This document shows positions 178 through 31,128 of a stretch of 33,088 nucleotides of DNA, piece by piece. The stretch comes from a virus, in the IMG/VR virus record IMGVR_UViG_3300032180_000027, positions 1 through 33,088 of that record; one strand, written 5' to 3'. Below the pieces are notes generated by a model, which saw only the letters and a list, made by a program, of their open reading frames with translations, did not search any database and was not told the origin of the DNA. A program made the translations under genes and the position numbers. The number at the start of each line of letters is the position of its first letter. Position 1 is the stretch's first letter.

Positions 178-837
178 ATGCCGACGCCCTGTACTGTCTC
201 CGGCAACCTGCAAGCATTAACTTCCGGGCAGATAGCGCAAGGGCGTGTCATTTTCCAGCTTACGAACATTGGAATAGGCAATCCAGTAGGCGTCAGCGGA
301 ACAAGCATATTCCCAGCTTTAGTTTATAGCGTGATGACTGGGCTGGATGGCAGTTTTTCTGTGTCGCTCTGGGGTAACGACAATATCACGCCAGCGAACA
401 CACTTTATGCGGTAACTTTCCGCGACCCACAAGGCAACGAAGTTGGGCCGATTCTCTATAGCATTGTCGGCGCAACAGCGAACCTGAATACGCTGACTGC
501 CACGAGCACAACACTTCCGCCAGTTTTCATCACAGCCGGAAATCTTTCGCTGGCTATCTCGAATCAGAGCACAAATTTCACGATTGCCAACTTTGCAACG
601 CTCTACCGCGTGACGACAGCGGCTAGCACAATCACGGTAACGCTACCAACGGCGGTGGGTGTTCCGGGCCAGCTATTCATCGTGAAAAAGATTGATTCTG
701 GCGTGGGAACAGCCATACTGACGCCAGTTGGTGGGCAGACGATAGATACGCTTACAACTTTTACGCTTTCAGCACAAGGGCAGTTCATGGGATTGGTGAG
801 CAATGGGACGACTTGGGATATTTGGACTAGGAATTAG
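178..837 (+). CDS. Tail-fibre / baseplate-type beta-rich protein
   Basis: 219 residues, no signal peptide and only one cysteine, unlike the genes that follow. The first half reads as a carboxypeptidase-regulatory-like or baseplate-upper-type domain (GNLQ, GRVIFQLTN, GLDGSFSVSLWG, NTLYAVTFRDPQG), a pattern common at the start of phage fibre proteins. The C-terminal part (TTAASTITVTLPTA, GQLFIVKKID, GGQTIDT) matches the small beta-domain at the tip of many tail fibres. ATG directly follows the previous TAA. It overlaps the next gene by 35 bases. Role as a virion tail protein is inferred from domain style and position. Confidence 0.7.
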   Translation: MPTPCTVSGNLQALTSGQIAQGRVIFQLTNIGIGNPVGVSGTSIFPALVYSVMTGLDGSFSVSLWGNDNITPANTLYAVTFRDPQGNEVGPILYSIVGATANLNTLTATSTTLPPVFITAGNLSLAISNQSTNFTIANFATLYRVTTAASTITVTLPTAVGVPGQLFIVKKIDSGVGTAILTPVGGQTIDTLTTFTLSAQGQFMGLVSNGTTWDIWTRN

Positions 838-2566
838 CCTCTTTTTTCTGGCCTTGCCAGCGAGTGCACAGGTGTCTCAAAAGCCTTTACCAGGGCAGGA
901 TTTGGCAAATACTTGGACTAACACCAACACCTTCACCGGGGCGCTGAATTGCAAAACGCTAGATGCCATTATTTGCGCTGATGCTTACACCACCCCTGCG
1001 ACGGTCAATCCGCCCTCGACAAGTCCCGGTTTAACTTCTACTAGTACTAGCGGGTCAGTTGCAGCCAATACCTACGCCTGCGAAGTAACCTACAATGGCG
1101 CGACGACTGGAGAAACAACCGCCTCAAGTTCCAGTGGAACAGTTGTGACTAGCGGCGCAACAAGCACACTGTTTTGCGCTCCGAACGATGCCCCGGCTGG
1201 GGCACTTACCTACAACGTCTACTGGCAAACAGGTGGGGCTGGCTCTTTCTGGAAAGGTCACGCAAGCGTTGCTTTTGGCACGATGGACTCGCAAACAACA
1301 ACGCCGGCGACAAGCGGCACCAATCCTCCGGTATCGAATACAGCCACAGCAGTTCTCGCGGCGGCGCAAGCGGCACTTTCCGGTGGGCCGGGAGCGATTA
1401 TCATTCCATCACAACAGGCAGCCAATTCAGGCAATCCCGGCGATGCACCAGCACTCCAGCAAGTAATCATGGATTTCCGAAATGGGTCAATGTCTCTTTG
1501 GGGCACACTTCCGCCCTCGCATAACACGGAATCCGGCTCAGCTATGAACGATTCCTTTTTTGTGGACGTAAGGCCGCCCGTTCTTGGCATACGCCAACAA
1601 GTGAATTGCATACATGGGCAAATGATTCTAGGAACCCCAACGTGGGGGAATACGTTGCCGATCTCGGCAGGGAACTGCGGATTTTTCAGCACATATCGCT
1701 TTGGTTCGAGAGCAGAGTTGGCCTCAGCCGTGACCGCTGTTATTCTTTGTGCAAATCAGAATGCTGTGTGCGAGGGACAGGAAATTGACACCAACAATGC
1801 GAGCGGTTCCGATGCAACGACAGGAAATGGCGGCGTTGGACTAAACATCTTTTCGGTTGGCGCGAACAAGGCATGGATAGGATTAAATATCACGCCCTCT
1901 GCTCCCTCTGGAGGATTCGTGAGCGCCGCTCTAAACATCGGAGACGCTACTGGACAGGCCACTGCCCTAGCCGTTGGAGCGCAGGGTGGAGGCGCAGCGA
2001 GCAATGATTCGCAGGTAATCAATCTTGTGGCCGTAAATTCGGGGGCTACCCGTATTGCGGGCGCAATCAAAGCCACGCAATTTGGCGACATCAGCTTGGA
2101 CGCCAATAGCGGCTTCATCCTTGTGCAAAAGACGGGATCGCAAGTAGGGCGTCTAAACTTCAGTGGCAACACAGCACTTCGCACCTACGCCTTCCCTGAC
2201 ACCAGCGGACCAGTGCCCATAACACCAAATCTATTAATTTCAGCTACGGCTCCGATCATCGCAGCGGCAGGTTGCGGAGGCTCGGCGGCGACTGTAAACT
2301 TCCAGAATGGGACGGCAGCCTTTGAAATCAACGTAGGTACGGCTCCTAGTTCCGCTTGCACTATTACCATGCCAGCGGCAGCGCATCACTGGATTTGCGA
2401 TGCGAACGACATCACAACCAATTCAACGACAGTATTTTACCAGAAGCAATCACCCGCCGCTTCGCAAACCACGACGCAGGTTATGATTACAAATTTCAGC
2501 GATGTGGCAGCGGCCTCGGTATTCATTGCAAACGATTTGCTGGATGTGAGCTGCCATGCCATGTGA
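803..2566 (+). CDS. Tail-fibre-like protein with Sec signal peptide
   Basis: 587 residues. Residues 1-22 form a typical signal peptide ending LALPASA before Q, a signal peptidase I-like site. A short fibre motif follows (TWTNTNTFTG). Residues about 65-170 resemble a fibronectin-type or Ig-type beta domain. The C-terminal 100 residues match a domain seen at the end of phage receptor-binding proteins: a Gly/Asn-rich beta segment, then MPAAAHHWICDAND, then an ending like DLLDVSCHAM. The protein has about 12 cysteines. The start overlaps the preceding fibre gene. Probably a host-recognition or exported fibre; the signal peptide is unexpected for a virion part. Confidence 0.7.
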   Translation: MGRLGIFGLGISLFFLALPASAQVSQKPLPGQDLANTWTNTNTFTGALNCKTLDAIICADAYTTPATVNPPSTSPGLTSTSTSGSVAANTYACEVTYNGATTGETTASSSSGTVVTSGATSTLFCAPNDAPAGALTYNVYWQTGGAGSFWKGHASVAFGTMDSQTTTPATSGTNPPVSNTATAVLAAAQAALSGGPGAIIIPSQQAANSGNPGDAPALQQVIMDFRNGSMSLWGTLPPSHNTESGSAMNDSFFVDVRPPVLGIRQQVNCIHGQMILGTPTWGNTLPISAGNCGFFSTYRFGSRAELASAVTAVILCANQNAVCEGQEIDTNNASGSDATTGNGGVGLNIFSVGANKAWIGLNITPSAPSGGFVSAALNIGDATGQATALAVGAQGGGAASNDSQVINLVAVNSGATRIAGAIKATQFGDISLDANSGFILVQKTGSQVGRLNFSGNTALRTYAFPDTSGPVPITPNLLISATAPIIAAAGCGGSAATVNFQNGTAAFEINVGTAPSSACTITMPAAAHHWICDANDITTNSTTVFYQKQSPAASQTTTQVMITNFSDVAAASVFIANDLLDVSCHAM

Positions 2567-5500
2567 GGCTCTTGTGAGAAATCTACTCCTGGCTATTATC
2601 TTCCTGCTCGCAACGGGCTATTGCCATGCTCAAGGCATTCCCTACACGGCTGGGCCATTTCCGAATAGCAGCTATCTTTATGTTTGCCCTGCACCATCTG
2701 GTGGCACGCCATGCCCATCGCCAGTCTCGATATATTCCAATGTCACGCTGACCACGCCTGTAGCCAATCCTCTTTTTATCACATTTGGGAGCACTGTTAC
2801 TTTTTACATTGCACCTGGCACTTATACGATGGAGTTTCCTTCAGCCGGATATAGCGTAGTAGTCAGCATTGGCGGGTCCGGTGGAGGGGTTTCGATAACC
2901 ACGGTTTCAGGATTAGCCTCTGTGCCGGGAAAAACCAAGGGCACTCTCGCCGTAGTCACGGATGGCAATAGCGCCACAGATTGCACGACTGGTAGTGGCT
3001 CTACAGTGGTTATTTGCCAGTACAGCGGTAGCGTGTGGGCGCAAGCGGTGGCTGCCTCTAGTGGCTCAACGGCATGGAGTGCATTGACTTCGGGCACGAA
3101 TACTAATACCGGATTCGCGCTTTCTCCTGTAGCAACGGGTACCGTTCCCTTCACGCTAACTGCGCCATCGGGGCAGACCGTTGATATTTATGACTGGTTT
3201 CTGGCCGCTACGAAAGAAGTCTGGATAGACAGTGCTGGCATCATGCATTTTGCTCAGCCGCCTGTTGGGAGCGCGGCGAGCCTAACCAGTTTCCCAACGC
3301 TGAACCAAAACACAACAGGCACAGCATCAAACCTTTCTGGTACGCCAGCATTGCCTAATGGCACTACGGCGACAACGCAATCTCCCGGCGATAATACGAC
3401 AAAGCTGGCCACGGATGCTTTTGTGCTTGCGAACGCTATTACGAATCCAATGACCACGATTGGAGATATGATTGGCGGTGGAACCTCGGGAGTAGCTACG
3501 CGAATCGCCGGTGGCAAAACAGGCCAAGTACCAACGGCAACGAATGGCGCAACTCCGGGTTTCGTGTCTCCGGGCGTAGCTGATGGCAATGCCGCGGCCC
3601 ATGTTACGACGACACCTTACGTAGTCGCCTGTGACAGCTCCACAGCTATTCTTGACCGCGTAACCACTATCGTATTCGATAGCGGGGCCAGCATCATCAC
3701 CGCTCCCGATCATACCGCTACCGGCTGTGGCAGTAACATGGCATTTACGTTGGTCAACGAGAGCGGGAGCACGCTGACGGTGAATCGGGGTGGCACGGAT
3801 ACCTTCAATATCACTGGCAACGTAGCTAAGTCCATTGCGGCAACGAGTTTCACGATTCCAGACAGTGGCAGCGCAACCTTGAACAATGGTGAGGCTGGGA
3901 TATGGAACGTCCGAGTCCTTCAACCCGCTAGTGTCAATCGCCGGAACTGTTCACAGGACCCCGGGGCGGATGACGGCCTTAAACTTCAAGCCTGCTTAAT
4001 CGCTCTAAACTCAGCGAATTCACAAGCAGGAATTGCAGACGCCACGGATTTGAAAGGTCTGACTTGGAGCGTGAATCCATTCGCGGCAGCATCCCTACCG
4101 GCAAGCGGTGAAATTTGGCTGCCCCCCGGTGACACGGTTGTGAGTGTTCCCACGGTCATGCCGGATGCGTGGGTTATTAAAGGTATAGGCGGAAGGTCAG
4201 TAACCGCGCAGTACGGCTCAAACCTCAAGGCAAGCGCTTCTTGGCCTCCGACCTATTCGACAGGAACTATCACTAAGGGAACGGCTGGAGCCAATGATGT
4301 AATTACTGGCTCAGGCACTACTTGGAACTCCACAAATACACCAATAGGATGTGCTTTAGTTGGAGGCACTCAGCCTAACATAACTTACGGCATCATCTCC
4401 GCGATCGGCTCGACAACCAGCATCACTCTCAAGTGGGGTACGGACAATGGAACAGGCGCAGCGGCAGCAAGTGCCTATAACGTCTTTTGCCCAGTAGTTG
4501 TTATGGGTGGTGGTGGAGCTTCAAACGCTGGTGCTCAATTTGGCATCCAGCTTCGTAGCATGGGCGTGGATTGTAACAACATCGCTGGTTGCGTGGACGT
4601 TTTGAACTGGTACGCACAGCAACACAGCGAAATACATGACACAAGTTTCCGTGGTTTCACGAACATTGGTTTACTCATAGAAGGTCAGCCGCAAAATTCA
4701 GGACCATATGACAACATCAATCTTTCTCCTGGTTCAAGCTGCACAGCGGGAACAATTCCATTAGTGATACGGGCTGCATCCCAGTCTCTTGGGCAGTTCC
4801 ATCGGATTACGGCATCACAAGGTTCTTGCGCTACTAATCCAACGGTGGGGATTGACCTTCAAGGCAGTTTCACCGAACTAAATACGATTGACGTAGAGCA
4901 TGTGACCACGGGGATATCAGTGGGAGCGAATACCTCATGTCCTGTAACATGCGCGAATCCCACGAAACTGCCGACACAATTTCATATCGTCAACGCCTAT
5001 AACCCTTCAGGCTCAGGCACAACCGTAGTAGCAGTCAGCAACTTTAACGGATCGCCCACCGACTACTCGCTAACGAACATTCAGGGAAACGTAACTAATA
5101 CCTTCACAGATGCACAAAATTCCTGCACGGAAACGGCGACGAAGTTGGGTAGCTACATTGTTGACCACGCCGGAGCAATTAACGAATCGACTTCCACCAC
5201 GTCTGGATGCGCAACGGTTTACACCAAGAATTTGTCCAGCCTGACAATCGGATTTATGCCTAAGGCAACCAGTGCTACGGCTATTGGCAATTCCATCTGT
5301 GATGAAGCTATCACCACCGCCAACACTTTTACTTGTACCAACACGGCGGGAGCAGCCTTCACGGGCAGTTCGGTAAAAGTTGGTGCCAGCCCGCCCGCGC
5401 TAACCGGGAATGGAATCGGTGGCACAGAAACAACCGGACAGACTGGAGCCGCTAGTGCCGATATGCTCGCTTGGAACTCCACCGACCATTGCCCGCACGG

Positions 5501-5879
5501 AATCTATAACAACGTAGACCTTGGTTGCGTTGCCTCATCTCCACGCACGGCCTGTACCAATGGAGAGCTCGCATTGAGTGCAGGGTGGGGAACGACAGCG
5601 ACGGTGACGGCTGTAGCGGGAATCGGCTATACCTGTAAATGGACTCTCACTTCCAGCGGAACCGGACAGGCAGCTAACCCAACCATCACCGACACCTTTG
5701 TTGCCGCTAATGTTCTCCCCATTGGCACGATGCTCTGCGATATGCGAATGACGGGAGGAACGGGCACCACAACGCTGATAGATGAAACGACAGTCAGCGC
5801 GACGGCTCCCGTATTCACCTTTGGCGGGACTCCGGTTGCGGCTTCAACCTACATTGTGTTTCGGCGGTGCGGAGAATGA
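2556..5879 (+). CDS. Large tailspike/fibre-like protein with signal peptide, pectin-lyase-like region
   Basis: 1107 residues. The N-terminus has a hydrophobic signal (NLLLAIIFLLATGYCHA before Q). A GTG at 2574, five bases after GAGG, would give a cleaner signal peptide (MRNLLLAI) and may be the true start. Next is a domain common in tail proteins (VSIYSNVTLTTPVANPL, FYIAPGTYTMEF). Fibre repeats follow. Residues about 480-900 look like a right-handed beta-helix of the pectate-lyase/tailspike type (QDPGADDGLKLQACL, GEIWLPPGDTVVSV, WVIKGIGG). About 27 cysteines are present, far more than usual for a cytoplasmic protein. Probable polysaccharide-binding or depolymerising spike; no catalytic residues identified. 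Confidence 0.7.
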   Translation: MPCEALVRNLLLAIIFLLATGYCHAQGIPYTAGPFPNSSYLYVCPAPSGGTPCPSPVSIYSNVTLTTPVANPLFITFGSTVTFYIAPGTYTMEFPSAGYSVVVSIGGSGGGVSITTVSGLASVPGKTKGTLAVVTDGNSATDCTTGSGSTVVICQYSGSVWAQAVAASSGSTAWSALTSGTNTNTGFALSPVATGTVPFTLTAPSGQTVDIYDWFLAATKEVWIDSAGIMHFAQPPVGSAASLTSFPTLNQNTTGTASNLSGTPALPNGTTATTQSPGDNTTKLATDAFVLANAITNPMTTIGDMIGGGTSGVATRIAGGKTGQVPTATNGATPGFVSPGVADGNAAAHVTTTPYVVACDSSTAILDRVTTIVFDSGASIITAPDHTATGCGSNMAFTLVNESGSTLTVNRGGTDTFNITGNVAKSIAATSFTIPDSGSATLNNGEAGIWNVRVLQPASVNRRNCSQDPGADDGLKLQACLIALNSANSQAGIADATDLKGLTWSVNPFAAASLPASGEIWLPPGDTVVSVPTVMPDAWVIKGIGGRSVTAQYGSNLKASASWPPTYSTGTITKGTAGANDVITGSGTTWNSTNTPIGCALVGGTQPNITYGIISAIGSTTSITLKWGTDNGTGAAAASAYNVFCPVVVMGGGGASNAGAQFGIQLRSMGVDCNNIAGCVDVLNWYAQQHSEIHDTSFRGFTNIGLLIEGQPQNSGPYDNINLSPGSSCTAGTIPLVIRAASQSLGQFHRITASQGSCATNPTVGIDLQGSFTELNTIDVEHVTTGISVGANTSCPVTCANPTKLPTQFHIVNAYNPSGSGTTVVAVSNFNGSPTDYSLTNIQGNVTNTFTDAQNSCTETATKLGSYIVDHAGAINESTSTTSGCATVYTKNLSSLTIGFMPKATSATAIGNSICDEAITTANTFTCTNTAGAAFTGSSVKVGASPPALTGNGIGGTETTGQTGAASADMLAWNSTDHCPHGIYNNVDLGCVASSPRTACTNGELALSAGWGTTATVTAVAGIGYTCKWTLTSSGTGQAANPTITDTFVAANVLPIGTMLCDMRMTGGTGTTTLIDETTVSATAPVFTFGGTPVAASTYIVFRRCGE

Positions 5880-6133
5880 GCTTCAGGGCTTCAACGACAA
5901 CAGCGGCTTTAGGTGGCTCCTTACTCGCCATAGGTGCAACCGCCAGCATAACCGTCAGCGTTCCCGGTGCTCGTGCTGGAATGATGGTGAGCGTAACGCC
6001 AAATGCCGACCCTGGTCTCGGATGCATCTGGTACGGATTTGTTAGCGCAAACGATACCGTTACCGTTCGAGTTCTGGCCATTATCTCATTGACACCAGTC
6101 AGCACAACCTACACCGTGGTGGTGGAACAATGA
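5876..6133 (+). CDS. Small beta-domain structural protein
   Basis: 85 residues starting at the ATG that overlaps the previous TGA (ATGA), behind a GGAG-like site; a GTG at 5867 is also possible. The body (ITVSVPGARAGMMVSVTP, FVSANDTVTVRVLAI) fits a small beta-sandwich domain often found in phage decoration or tail-tip proteins, where a TVxVPGA-xGD pattern and an AYVSAxxTVTVR pattern recur. No clear signal peptide, although residues 8-28 are small and hydrophobic. It sits between two fibre-like genes and ends in another ATGA overlap, so it is probably translated with them. Exact virion role unknown. Confidence 0.65.
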   Translation: MSFRASTTTAALGGSLLAIGATASITVSVPGARAGMMVSVTPNADPGLGCIWYGFVSANDTVTVRVLAIISLTPVSTTYTVVVEQ

Positions 6134-6882
6134 GATTTATTCTCGCGCTAGTATTGATTTTGTGTCCGCAAGATGTGGTGAATGGCCCCACGAAAATCAA
6201 TGGCCCGACGATAATTAAAAGTGGTGTAGGCGGGTCGTCTATAGTTGTTACAGGGAAAACGTGCTTCGCTACGCAGAACTTCAGTGACCCAACCTGTACT
6301 TGGAGCGCGAATCCGTCCGTAGGCGAAACAATTCATTGTGGCGTGTCCAATCAGAACGGAACGCTGGGCACTCCGTTTTCGGTCTCAGACAATGCGAGTC
6401 CGGCGAACTCATACACGGCAAATGGCAGTTCGTTTCTCAGTGCTGACCTAAATGGCAGCTTCCAGTTTTTTGATTCATTCTCTATCACTCATTCCCCCTC
6501 GACAACAACTCTCACGACGACGGGAACCAATCAAAATATAACCGGAATCGGATGCATCAGTACGACAGGTGGCGTGGGTTCAGTGGATGCCGCCGTGGGG
6601 ACAGTCACAGGCAACACCGTAACCACTATGTCAGCAACGATAGTCCCCACAGGCAGTGCCGACTTGGCACTTTTTTGGGTTGCTACAAATAACGGCACAG
6701 CAGCGGCAACGTATACAGCGGGAAGCGGATTCACGCTTATCGGAACCACCCTGACAAGTTCGCGTTTCACTTATCAGATGGAGTACTCAGTTTTAAGCTC
6801 CTCCGGCTCACAATCTTGTCCCATCTCTTGGAACCAGTCTTCGACCAGTGGTAACGGCGGGATATGCGGGACGTGGAAATGA
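6130..6882 (+). CDS. Secreted-type Ig-like protein in tail cassette
   Basis: 250 residues. A short signal-like segment (MRFILALVLILCPQ) opens the protein; cleavage is less clear than in its neighbours. The rest is Ser/Thr/Gly-rich and beta-like, with VSDNASPANSYTANG resembling Ig-like or bacterial adhesin repeats, and seven cysteines. Start and stop both overlap neighbours by four bases (ATGA), so it belongs to the fibre operon. No enzyme motif seen. Most likely a fibre, chaperone or exported surface-binding protein; family not recognised. Confidence 0.6.
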   Translation: MRFILALVLILCPQDVVNGPTKINGPTIIKSGVGGSSIVVTGKTCFATQNFSDPTCTWSANPSVGETIHCGVSNQNGTLGTPFSVSDNASPANSYTANGSSFLSADLNGSFQFFDSFSITHSPSTTTLTTTGTNQNITGIGCISTTGGVGSVDAAVGTVTGNTVTTMSATIVPTGSADLALFWVATNNGTAAATYTAGSGFTLIGTTLTSSRFTYQMEYSVLSSSGSQSCPISWNQSSTSGNGGICGTWK

Positions 6883-9161
6883 AGCGGTTACGTTTACTTC
6901 CATTCTTATTCCTCACGCTTTCTACTCACGCGCAATCCTATACCGGGCTGATTGATAACACCCGTGCATCGGCAGGCGCGGGAGGATTAGGAACAAATGG
7001 TTGGGCACAAGCTGGTGTTACGGGAGGCATCCCTTCAAGCACATGGACGCAGTGCGGATCAACCATTGCCGCTTATTCAGGAACCACTGACACCATCAAC
7101 AACGCCATCGCTGCTTGCGGGACGAATCAGTATGTCCTGCTCGGCCCGGGGACATTCAACCTGACTTCCACTGGTACCGTATCTCCCGGTATCCGCATTA
7201 GGATTAATAACGTAGTTTTGCGTGGTAGTGGCGCTGACCAGACCTTTTTGGTGATGGCCTCAGGTGCAAAAGACGGTTGTACGGGCATCTCCGGCGCTAT
7301 CTGTTTGCAAAGCCCAACTGCGGGAAACCCGTTCAGCGACCCAACAGTGGCGTGGACAGCAGGCTATGCTCAAGGGTCAAATCAAGTTACGTTGGCGAGT
7401 ACAACCGGGGTCGTGCCAGGAACGACAGGGGTGGTGTTAAGCCAATGTTCCTTCGGTCTATCGGGAACCTCTTGCTCCGGCCCCAGCAACGAGGCTCCTG
7501 ACAATGGTAATTTTTGGGATTGCAACCAGGAATATACGACGGCATGGAACTCAAGCACGACCTACGGCGTAAATCAGCAGGTAACGTATGCGACTACCGG
7601 CCATTGGTATATAGCGCTTGGCACATCAACCAACGTACTCCCAACGGTTACTGCCTCATGGTCGGACCAAGGCGTGTATGCCAACGCAACCTTTGGTTGC
7701 GCGGTCAATGGGCCAGATAATGGAAATCAGCAGTTGAGCCGTCCGCAATCGGAAACTTTCGTAGTTTCCGCCGTGAACGCAGGCACCGGCGTTGTCACGC
7801 TCAACGGCACATTGAAAAATCCTAATTGGAACTCGGCAAATACGCCGACCGCGCTTATTGTCCCATTGCTGCAAAATAGCGGCGTCGAAAACTTGTCTTT
7901 GGACACGACCAGCGACAACTCCCTAGCTTCCATCAGTATGATTTACACGGCTGGATGCTGGTTCAAGGGTGTCCGATTTGTAAAGACACCTTCCTACGGC
8001 GTTTGGGCTATCGTATCTTCTCACGATACCTTTGAGCAAAACTATTTCTGGGGCACGACGCTAACGCCCGGGGCGGACAACTACGCATTCAATCTGACGT
8101 TTGGTACCGATGACCTCATCCAGAACAATATCATTCAGAATTTAGAAGGTACTTTGGTAGAGGAAGGCCCTGCAACCGGTAACGTCTTCGGCTATAATTT
8201 CAGCATCTTCGAGAACAACGGCAACAATTCAGGACTGAACCCAGCCTATTTTCCCCACGCGGGAAATCGGTACCAACTCTTTGAAGGCAATATCACCAAC
8301 GCATACTTTGGCGAAAACTTCCACGGCCCGAAGATTGCCGATACGCTCTATCGAAACTTTTTTACCGGCTGGGAGTCGGGAGCAAATCAACCAACACCCG
8401 TCGTCAAGAATAGCGGCACAACCGCCGTCAGGTTTATGCACCATAGCCGCTATCCAAACGTGATCGGGAATGTTCTTGGGACACCGACAGTATCCACCGC
8501 TGGCTACTCCACAACTGCTGGATTTGCCGTAGGTTTTATTTATGAAGTTGGCAGCAATGATCTAGCTCCCGCAGACCCGATTGTGGCATCTACGCGGTAC
8601 TTTTGGGGGAATTGGGACATCGTATCGAACGCAACCCGCTGGTGTGGCAGCGCTTCAGACACCGGCTGGGTGGCTGTTTGCGGCAGCATATCGGAAGTCC
8701 CCACTGGTATCGCCGTGATGCCACAATCATTACCGACAGTGGGCGATACCGGGGCTGGACAATCAGCGCTTCCGGCGTCACTGTATCTGGCCAGCAAGCC
8801 TTCATGGTTCCGCAATCTTCCCTTTCCATTGATTGGTCCCGATGTAGCCAGCGGCAATGTTGGCATGTGCTCGGGAACGATTGACACGGCAGGGAATTAC
8901 TCCGGCGTTCCGGCTGAAACCAGCGGACAATGTTCTCCTGGTCCGGCCCTCACATCCGCATGGGCAGGGCATGTCAACGCCAACCCGGCAATGGACTGTT
9001 TCCTCTCCGTGATGGGCGGCAAACCAGATGGTACAGGTACAAGCGCCTTGAGTTTCAACGCAAGTACTTGTTATTCAGGAACTACAGTTCAGCCAGTATC
9101 GGCCCCGGCTAAAACCATGTTTGCTGGCAATATGACTTCTAGTGGAGTAGCAGGAAACTAG
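6879..9161 (+). CDS. Pectate-lyase-like beta-helix protein with signal peptide and CBM-like insert
   Basis: 760 residues from the ATG that overlaps the previous TGA; an in-frame ATG lies at 6864. The signal peptide is MKRLRLLPFLFLTLSTHA before Q. The next part (TINNAIAACGTNQYVLLGPG) is the usual entry of a right-handed beta-helix. Near residues 220-265 an insert (WNSSTTYGVNQQVTYATTG, then W-S-D) resembles a family 5/12 carbohydrate-binding module. A long beta-helix with NNII/ENN turns follows. The C-terminal motif LPASLYLASKPSWF with IGPDV is a style I associate with secreted beta-helix proteins of soil bacteria. About 15 cysteines. Likely polysaccharide-targeting spike or secreted enzyme; catalysis unproven. 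Confidence 0.7.
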   Translation: MKRLRLLPFLFLTLSTHAQSYTGLIDNTRASAGAGGLGTNGWAQAGVTGGIPSSTWTQCGSTIAAYSGTTDTINNAIAACGTNQYVLLGPGTFNLTSTGTVSPGIRIRINNVVLRGSGADQTFLVMASGAKDGCTGISGAICLQSPTAGNPFSDPTVAWTAGYAQGSNQVTLASTTGVVPGTTGVVLSQCSFGLSGTSCSGPSNEAPDNGNFWDCNQEYTTAWNSSTTYGVNQQVTYATTGHWYIALGTSTNVLPTVTASWSDQGVYANATFGCAVNGPDNGNQQLSRPQSETFVVSAVNAGTGVVTLNGTLKNPNWNSANTPTALIVPLLQNSGVENLSLDTTSDNSLASISMIYTAGCWFKGVRFVKTPSYGVWAIVSSHDTFEQNYFWGTTLTPGADNYAFNLTFGTDDLIQNNIIQNLEGTLVEEGPATGNVFGYNFSIFENNGNNSGLNPAYFPHAGNRYQLFEGNITNAYFGENFHGPKIADTLYRNFFTGWESGANQPTPVVKNSGTTAVRFMHHSRYPNVIGNVLGTPTVSTAGYSTTAGFAVGFIYEVGSNDLAPADPIVASTRYFWGNWDIVSNATRWCGSASDTGWVAVCGSISEVPTGIAVMPQSLPTVGDTGAGQSALPASLYLASKPSWFRNLPFPLIGPDVASGNVGMCSGTIDTAGNYSGVPAETSGQCSPGPALTSAWAGHVNANPAMDCFLSVMGGKPDGTGTSALSFNASTCYSGTTVQPVSAPAKTMFAGNMTSSGVAGN

Positions 9162-10477: not shown

Positions 10478-10719
10478 AAGGGCTGTTCTTGGCGTTGCTG
10501 GGCTTGCTAGCAATCGCAAGGACGCGCAAAGGGGTTGTGGCCACCCTCGGGCTATTGTGGCTGTCCTTGGCCCTCTTTGACTTTTCGCTCTTGCTGTTCC
10601 CCGGCTGGGAGACTTGGCGGGATTGTATGTCTTATATAATCTTCATCACGGCTATGCTGTGGCTGGCAACTAGTCGCTGGCGGCGCCCTCATCCCCCTGC
10701 TCAATCGCCCACGGAATAA
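10453..10719 (+). CDS. Small multi-pass membrane protein
   Basis: 88 residues from the ATG at 10453, preceded by a weak GGGAA site; longer upstream reading gives non-membrane, implausible sequence. Three likely helices: ESAAILVEGLFLALLGLLAI, ATLGLLWLSLALFDFSLLLF and MSYIIFITAMLWLA, with a basic/proline-rich C-terminal tail. It is the last gene of the rightward unit and its final 50 bases overlap the 3' end of the leftward Tlde1-like gene. Function unknown; its place among holin-like candidates next to a peptidoglycan-acting gene suggests a lysis role. Confidence 0.55.
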   Translation: MESAAILVEGLFLALLGLLAIARTRKGVVATLGLLWLSLALFDFSLLLFPGWETWRDCMSYIIFITAMLWLATSRWRRPHPPAQSPTE

Positions 10720-11074
10720 CCTGCAAGTCATGGTCGCCAGATTCCCAGATAGTCATTCTTGCTGACTTCGGCTGGATGATGCAGCCATCGCTCGCGGCTC
10801 CGGGATGCTCCAGCGAATCCCCGTGAATCATAAAGGCTGAACGACTGAACATCTCGTTGGCTGTGTCTGGCACTAAGTGCATGGCGTATGGACCATGCGA
10901 AGGCGAGTCAATCGGCTCGAGGATGGTGTACTTACCGCAAGGGATTGGCCCCATATTCGGGATGTGCTGGGCGCTCGGGTCGTTCTTGGCGATGCCTAGC
11001 CCTGAATAGCCGATAGCAAGCAAGTTCCCATCTGGCTTGAGCATTGCACCTGAATTTTGGATGTACGTAAACAT
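10670..11074 (-). CDS. Tlde1/DUF2778-type L,D-transpeptidase-like protein
   Basis: 134 residues. The pattern F-T-Y-x-Q-x-S-G at the start, ATGYSG-like IGYSGLG, NMGPIPCGKYTI, MHLVPD and then IHGDS with SDGCII is that of the Tlde1 domain (DUF2778), known from type VI secretion effectors that act as L,D-carboxypeptidase/transpeptidase on peptidoglycan. Candidate catalytic residues are His84 and Cys98. No signal peptide is seen, so export would need a holin or injection. It is the last gene of the long leftward operon but converges on the membrane-protein cluster, suggesting a lysis enzyme or an envelope-modifying factor. No SD site is visible before the start. Confidence 0.75.
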   Translation of the reverse strand: MFTYIQNSGAMLKPDGNLLAIGYSGLGIAKNDPSAQHIPNMGPIPCGKYTILEPIDSPSHGPYAMHLVPDTANEMFSRSAFMIHGDSLEHPGAASDGCIIQPKSARMTIWESGDHDLQVIPWAIEQGDEGAASD

Positions 11075-24979: not shown

Positions 24980-26473
24980 ATGGGCTACTGGCAAGGCGAG
25001 CTGGAACTAGCTGACGCGATTGCTGGGCTTGAGCGGATGCCCAAGCAGAAAGAATTTGTAACCTCCACGCACTTTGCCGCTGCCTATGTTGGCGGTGAAG
25101 GAGCCGGGAAATCCGTAGCCCTCTGCACCTCGTGCATCTGTAACGCCATCATAGAGCCAAATGGATTTTCCCTTCTCGGGCGTCTCAATATGCCCGCACT
25201 GGAATCCACCACCATGAAGACGTTTTTGGAGCTTGTTCCAGCTTCAATGGGCGAGTGGGCTGAGGCTAAAAAGACCTGGACATTCAATAGCGGGCATCAA
25301 GTTATCTTCCGGCACCTAGATATTTCAGAGCCAAAGGTCATGGGGCATATCCGGTCGCTCAACTTGAGTTTTGCCGGTGTGGATGAGGCTTCGGAGGTAT
25401 CCGAGGAAGTGTTTTTGATGCTCACGGGCCGCCTCCGGCGCAAGGGTGTCAATCGGCGGTTTTACCGTTCTTCGTCAAATCCTGCTGGCCATGACTATCA
25501 GTGGCGGTATTTCTTCGATCATAAGCGCTCTCCCGAGATGAAAGGTTTAAATCTCGGTATTGGCGCTTCCTCGATGGATAACGTATTCCTGCCGGAGGAG
25601 TACCACATCCGCAGGAAGTGTCTATATCCGCCAGATTGGTATGACCGCTTCGTTTTAGGCAGTTTTTCGGACTTCACCGACCTCATCTACAAGGAATTTA
25701 GCGAGCCTACGCACGTTTGGGATGATTCTGAGAAGTGGGAAATCTTCGGTGGAAGGTCCACTCCTCCGCCAGAATGGCCTGTTTATGTGGGCGTGGACGT
25801 GGGTGGCGGTGAGGAAGGAGACCCGTGGGCTATCCAGTTTGCCTCGCTTGGCCCTGACGGCAATCTTTACGAATTTGCCGAGATTTACGGCTCGGATTTG
25901 AGGTTAGCCCCCATTGCCGACCAGTGGCACACGATTATGCAGGGTCGGATGCTGGAAGGCATGGCTTACGACTACGCTCAAAGAGCGGCTGCGATTGAGC
26001 TTGAGGAGTACAACATCGGCGGTCAGTCAGCCAATAAGGAAGTCAAGCCCGGTTTATTCAAATGCGCCCAATATTTCCACATCGACCCACGCCTTAAGCA
26101 CCCTTTTAACCCGAATATCGAAGGCTCTCCACGGTATTTTGTCGCAAAATCCAATGTGAACTCCATTCGCGAATTAGGCACTTATAAGTGGGCAAAGGAT
26201 AGGTCTGGCGAAGCTAAAAACGAGCCAAGCCACGAAAATTCCCACTCGAACGATGCTCGCCGTTATCTCATTCACACCTTCCGGCCACTGCCCGCCGACC
26301 TGCCAAAGCCTGAAATCTGGATGAAAGAAGGCATAGACTTGAATAGCCGCATCTACTGGCAAAAGAAAAAAGAACAGGAAGAAAAAGAGCAGCACGCCAA
26401 GGCTCTCGGCAAATCTTCTTTGCTATTTCACAGAAAAGGCGTAATGTTCGGTCCTAGAAAGGTAGCGCAATGA
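24980..26473 (+). CDS. terL: Terminase large subunit
   Basis: 497 residues. The ATPase has Walker A GGEGAGKS (38-45), Walker B LSFAGVDEA (129-137) and a coupling motif SSSNPAG (164-170). The RNase H-like nuclease has VGVDVGGGEEGDPWA with Asp273, MAYDYA with Asp331, and SHSNDARRYL with Asp425. It cuts and pumps phage DNA into the prohead through the portal. Length is usual for the family. No strong SD before the ATG; a weak TATAGA lies eight bases upstream. Stop overlaps the next gene (ATGA). Confidence 0.93.
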   Translation: MGYWQGELELADAIAGLERMPKQKEFVTSTHFAAAYVGGEGAGKSVALCTSCICNAIIEPNGFSLLGRLNMPALESTTMKTFLELVPASMGEWAEAKKTWTFNSGHQVIFRHLDISEPKVMGHIRSLNLSFAGVDEASEVSEEVFLMLTGRLRRKGVNRRFYRSSSNPAGHDYQWRYFFDHKRSPEMKGLNLGIGASSMDNVFLPEEYHIRRKCLYPPDWYDRFVLGSFSDFTDLIYKEFSEPTHVWDDSEKWEIFGGRSTPPPEWPVYVGVDVGGGEEGDPWAIQFASLGPDGNLYEFAEIYGSDLRLAPIADQWHTIMQGRMLEGMAYDYAQRAAAIELEEYNIGGQSANKEVKPGLFKCAQYFHIDPRLKHPFNPNIEGSPRYFVAKSNVNSIRELGTYKWAKDRSGEAKNEPSHENSHSNDARRYLIHTFRPLPADLPKPEIWMKEGIDLNSRIYWQKKKEQEEKEQHAKALGKSSLLFHRKGVMFGPRKVAQ

Positions 26474-28367: not shown

Positions 28368-28774
28368 TGAACTGGTCTTACATAGGCGGCTTTTTCGATG
28401 GAGAAGGAACTATTTCTGTGCCTATGGGCTACGAAAAATTAAAGAGGCCAGTAGTTATTATTTATCAGTCGGAAAAGGCACCATTGTTAGCTATCCAGCA
28501 ATTCATGGTTGATTTTGGGATTGAATGCTATCTTCACGAGACGCATTATAAAAACAACTGGACAAAAAAGGCAATCTTCAGATTGCAACCAAAAACGCTA
28601 AACGATGTTAGGAAATTTCTGTACCACGTTTTCCCGCATTTAATACTAAAGCGCCAACTAGCAGAGGATTCGTGGAGATGGGCAAGAGCCTATCCGGCTT
28701 TAACTAGACGGCAAAACGGAAGAATGCAGACCGCCGCTAAAATGGAATATCTGAGGAAACGATGGGCGCGTTAG
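28364..28774 (+). CDS. LAGLIDADG homing endonuclease
   Basis: 136 residues with one LAGLIDADG motif at the start, SYIGGFFDGEGTI (5-17), the catalytic acid being Asp12 or Glu14. One motif implies it works as a homodimer. The rest has the usual saddle fold features (KRPVVIIYQSEKAPLLAI, FGIECYLHET, AIFRLQPKTLNDVRKFL) and a basic C-terminus. It is free-standing, squeezed between a small gene and the portal with overlaps on both sides, a typical site for mobile nuclease insertion. No intron or intein sequence surrounds it. Confidence 0.85.
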   Translation: MMNWSYIGGFFDGEGTISVPMGYEKLKRPVVIIYQSEKAPLLAIQQFMVDFGIECYLHETHYKNNWTKKAIFRLQPKTLNDVRKFLYHVFPHLILKRQLAEDSWRWARAYPALTRRQNGRMQTAAKMEYLRKRWAR

Positions 28775-31128
28775 GCGGAATGCTTGGCGGTCTACGTTCC
28801 ATATTCAAAGGCGGGGATAAACCTGTTCGGGATGAGCTTTCTAAAGAACCAAAAAAGCCGCTAGAGGGTTATCCAAATTTCAAAGATAAGAGAGAAAGAA
28901 TCAAATGGTTGATAGACCATTTTTACTTTGAATGCGCCTACGAAAAGATTCAGCTACACAGGAAATGGTTTCGCAATCGCCTGTTTTTTGGCGGCTATCA
29001 CGATAATGTTCTATCAGATGTGGGGATGAGTTTCGATGCCATCGGCATCAACTCCGGGGAATACTCTTTTGCTTCCAACTACTATCGCAGTTACATCCGC
29101 TACGGAGCGGCGATGTACGTGCAGACGGCCCCTGAGTTCATAGCGCAACCGACAAGCGGTGACCCGGAATCGCAAGGCGTAGCGGAAGCGGCGCGGGCCG
29201 TGCTTGACATCCAGAAAGAGAATGTGGGCTATGACGCTATCCGAGCAATGGAAGCGTTCAACCTTCGGACGGATGGCAACTCTTTCCGCTATTCTTACTA
29301 CTCTGTTGACCCACGCTATGGCTTTCAGACCGTTCCTGTTTATGAGGATGTGGAAGTCGAGATAGACGGCGGTACATGGCAGTGCCCAGTTTGCCAAATG
29401 CAAGGCGAAGGGCATCAGGAGGTTTGCCCGAATTGCGGACCTGGCTCACCCTACCCGATTCAGAATAATCCGCCGACAAAGGCCACGATTCCAGCGGTTA
29501 AAGGAAAAGTAGCTTACCCGCGAGGGCAGGAAGTCTGCGAAGTCGTTAACTCTTTCGAGGTATATGTCCGCTCGTCTGTAAAAACGCTATGGCAGGCTCC
29601 GTATCTACTTCGCGTGAGGATGGTAGATAATGTAGCTCTACAAGCCACATTTCCAAAATCTACGATTACAAGCGGCTACGTTCCTGGCGACACAGTGAAT
29701 GCTTCCGAGGACATCGGGCTAATCTACCAGCAAGCCATTCCGGATTTGCCGAATGACCCAACCCAATATCCCGGCTGGTATGAACGCTCGACGGCGCAAT
29801 CGAAAACTCCCCTCATTGAGGGCTGGCTGCGGCCCAGCCAGTATTACTTCGACAAGGAACTCATAAAGGAGTTCCCTGATGGCATGTATGCGGCAAAAGC
29901 CGAAGATAATCTGCTAACAACCCGCAACGAGTCGATGGACGACCACTGGACACATTTCAAGCATATCCCAGTGGATGGAAGGTTCTGGGGCGATGGTGAC
30001 GACGATCTAATTCCCGAGCAGATGCTTTACGATGCCACCGACCGTATGCTTTTGCGCCATGTAGACTTCAACACTATGCCGCTCATGATGATTGACGCGC
30101 AGCGCAGCGACAAGAATTCCTGGATTAACGATGCTGCAAATATAGTGGAATTGAAGAATCTTGGCACAAAGAGCATCGAGCAGGCTGCAAAGTGGTTTCC
30201 GGGCGGACAGATTTCCTCGGATGTATGGAACTGGCGGCAAACCCGCTTGCAGAATATGCAGTTCCACAGCGGGGTATCTCCTGCCGCAATTGGCCAGCCA
30301 GCTCCCGGCAATCCTACCTTTGGTGGGCAGGAAAATGCTGTAGCACGAAGCCAATCCATGCTGGGACCGCTCCAGCTTCTCTATAAAGAGGCAAACGAAC
30401 TTTGGGCCGTGCAGATGTTGAAGCTTGCGGCAAACAACTGGCTAGATGACCGCGTACAGGCCACGATGGGCGTTAATGGCCAGTGGGAATTCAAGAAGTT
30501 GCGCGGTGAATTGCTGGATATGGACCGGGTGCGGGTTCAGGCGAGAATCATTCCATTTGACCCATCAAAGGTGGATACGTTCAATCAGGCGATTGCCGTT
30601 GGAGCCTTTAATCCCCAGTTGCCTCCAGTAGTCCGCAGAAAGGCTTTGGAGCTTCACCAGTTGCCGGTCGAACTCGATGAATTCAATGAGGATGCGAAGG
30701 TACAGCAAAAGGAAATAGAGCAAATCAAGCAAGGCGGCAAACCCCAGCCTATTCCCTTTGTTCAGAACGATATGGCGCATATGCAAACGCTGAAGAACTG
30801 GATGAACTCGGATGAATACGACACCCAGCCGCCCGAAGTAAAAGCCGAGGCGTTCAATCACTTCACGATGCATATGCGGAACATGCAAACCGCGCAGCAA
30901 GCGATGGCGGCGATTCAAGGAACTCAGGAGCAGCAACCCGGGCAAGGCCAAGAACAGAATCCTAATGCCAACCCACAGTTTCGTCACGATAGGGCAGTAA
31001 AAGGACAAGCAGCTAAACCAAATAGGCCGCAACCGCCTGGTGGCAACCAGAACGGAGCGCAGAATGGTGGACGGCGCGGTATGAGCGAGAGCGCCCAGCA
31101 GAAACGTAGAAACGGGCACACCCGATGA
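28762..31128 (+). CDS. Portal protein with inserted zinc ribbon
   Basis: 788 residues, long for a portal. The order (head-proximal basic start, then FECAYEKIQLHRKWFRNRLFF, YRSYIRYGAAMYVQTAPEF, a middle clip/stem region, SGVSPAAIGQ and a long Gln/Asn-rich C-terminal tail) fits a dodecameric portal of the SPP1/podovirus type. Within residues 206-227 lies a zinc ribbon: CPVC (208-211) and CPNC (222-225). It forms the DNA entry channel at one vertex of the capsid and docks terminase. Position after terminase and before scaffold and capsid supports the call. ATG overlaps the LAGLIDADG gene. Confidence 0.85.
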   Translation: MGALGGMLGGLRSIFKGGDKPVRDELSKEPKKPLEGYPNFKDKRERIKWLIDHFYFECAYEKIQLHRKWFRNRLFFGGYHDNVLSDVGMSFDAIGINSGEYSFASNYYRSYIRYGAAMYVQTAPEFIAQPTSGDPESQGVAEAARAVLDIQKENVGYDAIRAMEAFNLRTDGNSFRYSYYSVDPRYGFQTVPVYEDVEVEIDGGTWQCPVCQMQGEGHQEVCPNCGPGSPYPIQNNPPTKATIPAVKGKVAYPRGQEVCEVVNSFEVYVRSSVKTLWQAPYLLRVRMVDNVALQATFPKSTITSGYVPGDTVNASEDIGLIYQQAIPDLPNDPTQYPGWYERSTAQSKTPLIEGWLRPSQYYFDKELIKEFPDGMYAAKAEDNLLTTRNESMDDHWTHFKHIPVDGRFWGDGDDDLIPEQMLYDATDRMLLRHVDFNTMPLMMIDAQRSDKNSWINDAANIVELKNLGTKSIEQAAKWFPGGQISSDVWNWRQTRLQNMQFHSGVSPAAIGQPAPGNPTFGGQENAVARSQSMLGPLQLLYKEANELWAVQMLKLAANNWLDDRVQATMGVNGQWEFKKLRGELLDMDRVRVQARIIPFDPSKVDTFNQAIAVGAFNPQLPPVVRRKALELHQLPVELDEFNEDAKVQQKEIEQIKQGGKPQPIPFVQNDMAHMQTLKNWMNSDEYDTQPPEVKAEAFNHFTMHMRNMQTAQQAMAAIQGTQEQQPGQGQEQNPNANPQFRHDRAVKGQAAKPNRPQPPGGNQNGAQNGGRRGMSESAQQKRRNGHTR

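Follow-up and report, generated by a model that had tools for sequence, protein, structure and literature searches.

Candidate exported, cysteine-rich tailspike-like proteins in the fibre operon of a tailed phage with a probable acidobacterial host

Phage depolymerases are usually regarded as virion spikes that are assembled in the cytoplasm. The question raised by the locus described here is why several proteins of a phage fibre cassette begin with Sec signal peptides and are rich in cysteine. The window, i.e., the whole stretch of DNA that was analysed, is a 33,088-base linear IMG/VR fragment of a tailed soil phage, with the following genes outside the cassette:

24980–26473, terminase large subunit (PHROGs)
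28762–31128, presumed portal (gene position and conserved family)
32076, start of the major head protein gene (PHROGs)

The host is probably an acidobacterium, because all seven portal-protein relatives in genome_contigs are found in Acidobacteria genomes or MAGs (23–43% identity). As a separate observation, a small Tlde1-domain protein, perhaps a lysis enzyme, is encoded downstream of the fibre operon (10670–11074, minus strand; PF10908, E = 1e-13; phrog_24118); crAss001 gp30 is annotated as an L,D-carboxypeptidase/transpeptidase.

Genes and signal peptides of the fibre cassette

The cassette genes abut or overlap as one operon together with the fibre gene, and the features below are named by the start of their gene (2574 for the gene with two candidate starts).

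178–837 (+), short fibre protein without signal peptide, 219 aa, 1 Cys; conserved first cassette gene
803–2566 (+), fibre-like Cys-rich protein with signal peptide, 587 aa, 12 Cys
803–868 (+), Sec signal peptide of the 803 protein, MGRLGIFGLGISLFFLALPASA, predicted cut before Q (scorer; 0.42% of shuffles pass)
2556–5879 (+), fibre-like Cys-rich protein with signal peptide, start at ATG 2556 or GTG 2574, 1101 aa, 27 Cys
2574–2630 (+), Sec signal peptide of the 2574 protein, MRNLLLAIIFLLATGYCHA, predicted cut before QG (leader and +1 Gln aligned in 27 of 27 relatives)
2631–2885 (+), "A1", the N-terminal beta-sandwich domain of the 2574 protein, whose Cys pair C38/C47 is conserved in all 27 aligned sequences
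5547–5870 (+), C-terminal module of the 2574 protein, common to fibres of relatives that have no signal peptide
5867–6133 (+), 88-aa protein, the same module as the C-terminus of the provirus signal-peptide fibre L145 (55% identity over 80 aa)
6130–6882 (+), 250-aa protein, 7 Cys, hydrophobic start MRFILALVLILCPQD without clear cleavage site
6879–9161 (+), right-handed beta-helix protein with signal peptide, 760 aa, 15 Cys; related to a secreted protein encoded in host exopolysaccharide loci
6879–6932 (+), Sec signal peptide of the 6879 protein, MKRLRLLPFLFLTLSTHA, predicted cut before Q (this Q is also invariant in the host homologues)
7047–8618 (+), beta-helix region of the 6879 protein, aligning to depolymerases, lyases and epimerases (VIA-align Z 20–22.6; confident only in part)

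The 178 protein, with homologues in nine of 14 related virus records and a weak match of its C-terminal part to an E. coli phage "head-binding domain-containing protein", is likely to be bound to the virion. For the 2574 protein, a start at ATG 2556 would prepend MPCEAL and raise the Cys count to 28, and TGAGG sits 8 nt 5' of GTG 2574. Pfam and PHROGs gave no useful match for the 803, 2574 or 6130 proteins; IMG/VR single-protein scans with 803 and with 6879 returned no match, and tblastn was equally negative against phages (6879 and 2574 as queries) and against plasmids (6879).

Leaders were evaluated with our own n-, h- and c-region scorer, not SignalP, calibrated on shuffled sequences and known phages. 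A positive n-region, an uncharged hydrophobic core and small residues at –3/–1, the hallmarks of type I Sec signals, are present in the 803, 2574 and 6879 proteins, and all three leaders end at an A-x-A-like site before Gln, as the original prediction had stated. A fourth signal peptide had been expected on the 6130 protein; since its hydrophobic start has no acceptable cleavage site for type I Sec, this candidate was rejected and the total corrected to three. The 6130 start may represent a signal anchor or a leader that has decayed, and no relatives of the protein were found among the loci compared. The same prediction had allowed for leaders that act as membrane anchors, a role not favoured here because they appear to finish in conserved A-x-A/Q sites, while its cysteine numbers (about 12, 27, 7 and 15 for 803, 2574, 6130 and 6879, and a single one in the leaderless 178 protein) were reproduced by the count.

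The scorer passes 0.14–0.42% of shuffles of these cassette proteins and 0.56% of shuffled N-termini of genes of ≥200 aa. In lambda both positive controls, Lom and the Rz anchor, were recovered, and of the proteins of ≥400 aa encoded by lambda, P22 and half of crAss001, 27 in total, none passes. In the phage family of the window the corresponding figure, with a 60-codon start search, is 15 of 128 genes of ≥200 aa, most of which encode large Cys-rich or cassette proteins, and the predicted signal peptides of the cassette stand far above chance. Among proteins of ≥400 aa, Cys content is 2.24% with a signal peptide versus 0.73% without. A gain of Cys in the shared C-terminal module of the signal-peptide fibres (4, 2, 2 and 2, versus 1, 2 and 1 in fibres without signal) was also considered, and was set aside as based on too few sequences.

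Recurrence in related phages, proviruses and cultured isolates

A search for the same arrangement in phages of Acidobacteria had been suggested at the outset, and Cys-rich proteins with signal peptides do recur in relatives of this phage, in proviruses and in the cultured phages Tunturi_1 and Tunturi_2. Among the relatives, a large protein of this kind is encoded directly after the 178 homologue in G001, G002, G007 and G012 and about 2 kb downstream of it in G014; G003 has one long fibre without signal peptide at this position, and the contig of G006 stops too early to show the gene. The A1 domain of the 2574 protein is common to G001, G002 and G012, preceded every time by a signal peptide. 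An A1 HMM matches 74 of 399 genomes (class of a Granulicella genome) at E ≤ 0.01, about 50 of them strongly. In the fetched loci A1 belongs to Cys-rich proteins of 580–1445 aa, mostly with a portal relative some 6–7 kb upstream, and in an alignment of 27 divergent sequences the leader, the +1 Gln and two Cys are kept in all 27. Because the signal-peptide fibre in L137 has a head protein and virion structural proteins among its neighbours, the A1-bearing loci are read as proviruses and not as host surface loci. The 178-type domain, too, is found behind a signal peptide (L146–L148), in L146 and L148 within structural operons of other prophage types.

Some further observations can be recorded here. 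In about one sixth of the sampled genomes of the class an A1-type signal-peptide fibre is present, usually as one copy with a portal relative upstream (L126–L144), and these loci are either intact proviruses or a domesticated phage element. An unrelated phage has a signal peptide fused straight to a 178-type domain in a protein of 659 aa with 14 Cys (L037 of G004, 1705–3684; L039 of G005, 1029–3008). Finally, in L148 (2094–7887) terminase-like and portal-like provirus genes are directly followed by a signal-peptide protein of 594 aa, outside a fibre cassette.

Cultured examples are available too. Tunturi_1 and Tunturi_2 are podoviruses of Tunturiibacter (Acidobacteriota), isolated as plaque formers, in a paper whose main text does not contain the term "signal peptide" (PMC11924767). 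Their fibre cassette encodes signal peptides on gp12, gp13, gp14, gp16 and gp17, four large ones of which have 10–34 Cys; the cassette thus resembles that of the window in its signal-peptide proteins and differs from it in their sequences. No signal peptide is present on the fibres of Tunturi_3 or, in the first 50 kb of each record, on those of Tunturi_4 and Tunturi_5. Since Tunturi_3 grows on the same host strain as Tunturi_1 and Tunturi_2, the trait appears to be a property of certain phages, not of all that grow in that host.

In Tunturi_1 and Tunturi_2 every large fibre-like protein bears a signal peptide and an evident spike without one is lacking, which suggests that some of these signal-peptide proteins are virion spikes. 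They would then pass into the periplasm, acquire their fold and disulfides there, and attach to tails once lysis brings the compartments together, much as P22 tailspikes can join finished heads last. Several other findings point the same way: in provirus L137 the signal-peptide fibre is the evident fibre candidate beside the head and structural genes, signal peptides are fused to the 178-type domain in G004 and L146–L148, one C-terminal module is found in fibres with and without signal, and the A1 model weakly resembles the tailspike-anchoring domains of P22, Sf6, Pam1 and Pan3. However, this fold match (Z 5–7) is in the noise range for beta-sandwiches, A1 also matches the exported host-type enzyme WceF (Z 4.7), the window already encodes a fibre without signal peptide, 178, and docking after lysis is undocumented for these phages. 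The A1 fold is, in addition, weakly CnaB-like. We regard virion spikes of this kind as unlikely, while still the main rival explanation. It is likewise unlikely that tailed phages of Acidobacteriota split their assembly, with heads and tails made in the cytoplasm and Cys-rich spikes exported, oxidised in the periplasm and docked at lysis; such a route of virion maturation, if true, would be new for tailed phages.

The occurrence of A1-type signal-peptide proteins in proviruses of Acidobacteriota chromosomes raises another possibility, that the cassette proteins are products of lysogenic-conversion genes (morons), expressed by the prophage and altering the host surface. Surface modification by prophages is common, with lambda Lom and Bor as examples of lysogenic-conversion proteins. 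This explanation is quite improbable for the cassette, whose genes form a single late operon with the fibre gene, their ends overlapping or adjoining; no integrase was found among the window proteins scanned, and Tunturi_1 and Tunturi_2, with the same trait, are plaque-forming isolates.

Very improbable, finally, are leaders that are not used at all, i.e., signal peptides left as relics of captured host genes on ordinary spikes that assemble in the cytoplasm. Fast trimer folding might outrun export, and similar spikes in Tunturi_3 to Tunturi_5, lambda, P22 and crAss001 do without a signal, but a relic would not be expected to keep its n-, h- and c-regions intact in relatives at 22–43% identity, nor to be present in several unrelated proteins and phage types, and the conserved Cys pairs fit an oxidising compartment.

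The 6879 protein and host exopolysaccharide loci

What the exported proteins might act upon is suggested by the 6879 protein, relatives of which were found in 43 of 398 genomes by whole-genome search. Many of them can be aligned from the leader almost to the C-terminus (29–39% identity), and the homology to this host secreted family is full-length, leader included. By their gene content, 13 of the 16 host loci read are polysaccharide biosynthesis clusters, as in L179, where Pfam confirmed a GDP-mannose/UDP-glucose dehydrogenase, a Wzx-like flippase, glycosyltransferases, an MBOAT acyltransferase and a polysaccharide deacetylase. Of the 55 positions at which 13 host proteins are identical, the phage protein has the same residue at 53; it also has a Cys in 12 of the 13 columns that are commonly Cys in the host family. 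Its departures from host-invariant Asp, D188S and D479E, could touch the active site, and for this reason 6879 may have an altered enzymatic activity or none. Since its gene is placed in the phage fibre operon and not in a polysaccharide cluster, 6879 is considered a phage relative of the family and not a cluster member.

For the 803 and 2574 proteins no full-length host relatives were found in the genomes searched, 803 having a single weak relative, to its C-terminal part, among 200 genomes. The signal-peptide proteins of G007 and G014 gave module-level matches or none in 61 genomes.

Structure prediction, which had also been proposed originally, yielded for 6879 a model (mean pLDDT 56) in which the right-handed beta-helix core is predicted with good confidence and the ends poorly, and for the A1 domain of 2574 a beta-sandwich with weak matches. 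With the 6879 model, the best Foldseek hit is the Klebsiella K1 capsule lyase (7w1c, E = 6e-11), phage depolymerases being weaker, and VIA-align gives Z 20–22.6 with phage depolymerases, alginate epimerases (AlgE4) and the periplasmic depolymerase VexL. The beta-helix fold is common to many sugar-active enzymes and therefore indicates the class of the protein, not its substrate. A PDB profile search with 6879 found no sequence link to solved structures, WceF included. No N-terminal virion-anchoring domain is recognised in 6879, which has the architecture of the host protein with nothing added, an argument against its being a virion spike.

A second connection of this type is provided by Tunturi_1 gp14 ("tail spike"), of which residues 15–898 of 919 align to chromosomal proteins with their own leaders (38%, E = 1e-140). 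The corresponding host loci (L215–L219) contain glycosyltransferases, a Wza-type export protein and a WecG-type transferase. As gp14 and 6879 are unrelated in sequence, gp14 appears to be an independent second case of a link between phages and host polysaccharide loci. A second pect-lyase-like paralogue, which also matches gp14, is present beside the gp14 relative in host polysaccharide loci (L216, 5979–7961; L217, 16163–18139).

Proposed role and comparison with known systems

Taken together, it seems fairly probable that the phage exports disulfide-bonded tailspike-like proteins that cut or bind host exopolysaccharide late in infection. The late fibre operon would encode at least three such Sec-exported proteins in addition to a conventional fibre without signal peptide, and their production late, alongside the virion genes, is likely given that their genes share an operon with the fibre gene and overlap or directly adjoin one another. 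From the leaders we infer passage through the inner membrane via Sec and cleavage before Gln; disulfides would form in the periplasm, and there, or after release, the proteins would cut or bind host exopolysaccharide. In this scheme 6879 would be the phage's counterpart to a beta-helix protein exported by the host from its exopolysaccharide clusters, and it is because of this relationship to a secreted protein of host slime clusters that the phage probably sends modifiers of the sugar coat out of the cell. The likely benefits would be progeny freed from slime, stripping or masking of the polysaccharide needed by later phages, and an envelope weakened for lysis. The action on exopolysaccharide is argued from the homology and predicted fold of 6879, and the case is weaker for 803 and 2574, since they have no full-length host relatives. 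The original idea of exported, spike-like proteins acting on polysaccharide is thus supported in part, its core being well supported, by inference, from the conserved leaders, the host homology of 6879 and the depolymerase-like model.

These findings are of interest since in one phylum, and in several phage types, spike-like proteins repeatedly carry conserved export signals, a trait present in the cultured Tunturi_1 and Tunturi_2. As 6879 and Tunturi_1 gp14 are each related over their full length to secreted proteins of host exopolysaccharide loci, host slime enzymes and phage spikes appear linked in evolution and in location.

The individual ingredients, i.e., phage depolymerases, exported beta-helix enzymes of host slime loci (WceF, VexL) and Sec-exported phage proteins (Lom, Lys44), are known already. 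In the open-access literature, an incomplete sample with most subscription journals outside it, no report was found of signal peptides on tail-fibre proteins, nor of fibre-cassette proteins that combine conserved signal peptides with a relationship to host exopolysaccharide-locus proteins. The Klebsiella K1 capsule lyase, LKA1 gp49 and KP34p57 have the fold of 6879, but phage capsule depolymerases are classically virion spikes. To our knowledge, no Sec signal peptide is known in phage capsule depolymerases such as LKA1 gp49 and KP34p57. Lambda Lom and Bor and the endolysin Lys44 of oenophage fOg44 (PMC6116005) are, as proposed for the cassette proteins, Sec-exported during infection or lysogeny; they are, however, outer-membrane proteins or a lysin and not large fibre-like polysaccharide proteins. 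VexL (6fi2), the periplasmic depolymerase of the Vi capsule, is a beta-helix like 6879 (Z 20.1) and an exported enzyme of a polysaccharide locus, but it is host-encoded and no phage copy has been shown. In Pantoea stewartii, an exopolysaccharide-cluster gene encodes WceF, an exported, tailspike-like right-handed beta-helix glycosidase with a head domain resembling that of the P22 tailspike (PMC7949094). WceF shares with 6879 the beta-helix and the link to exopolysaccharide, whereas it is encoded by the host and carries a Tat, not a Sec, signal.
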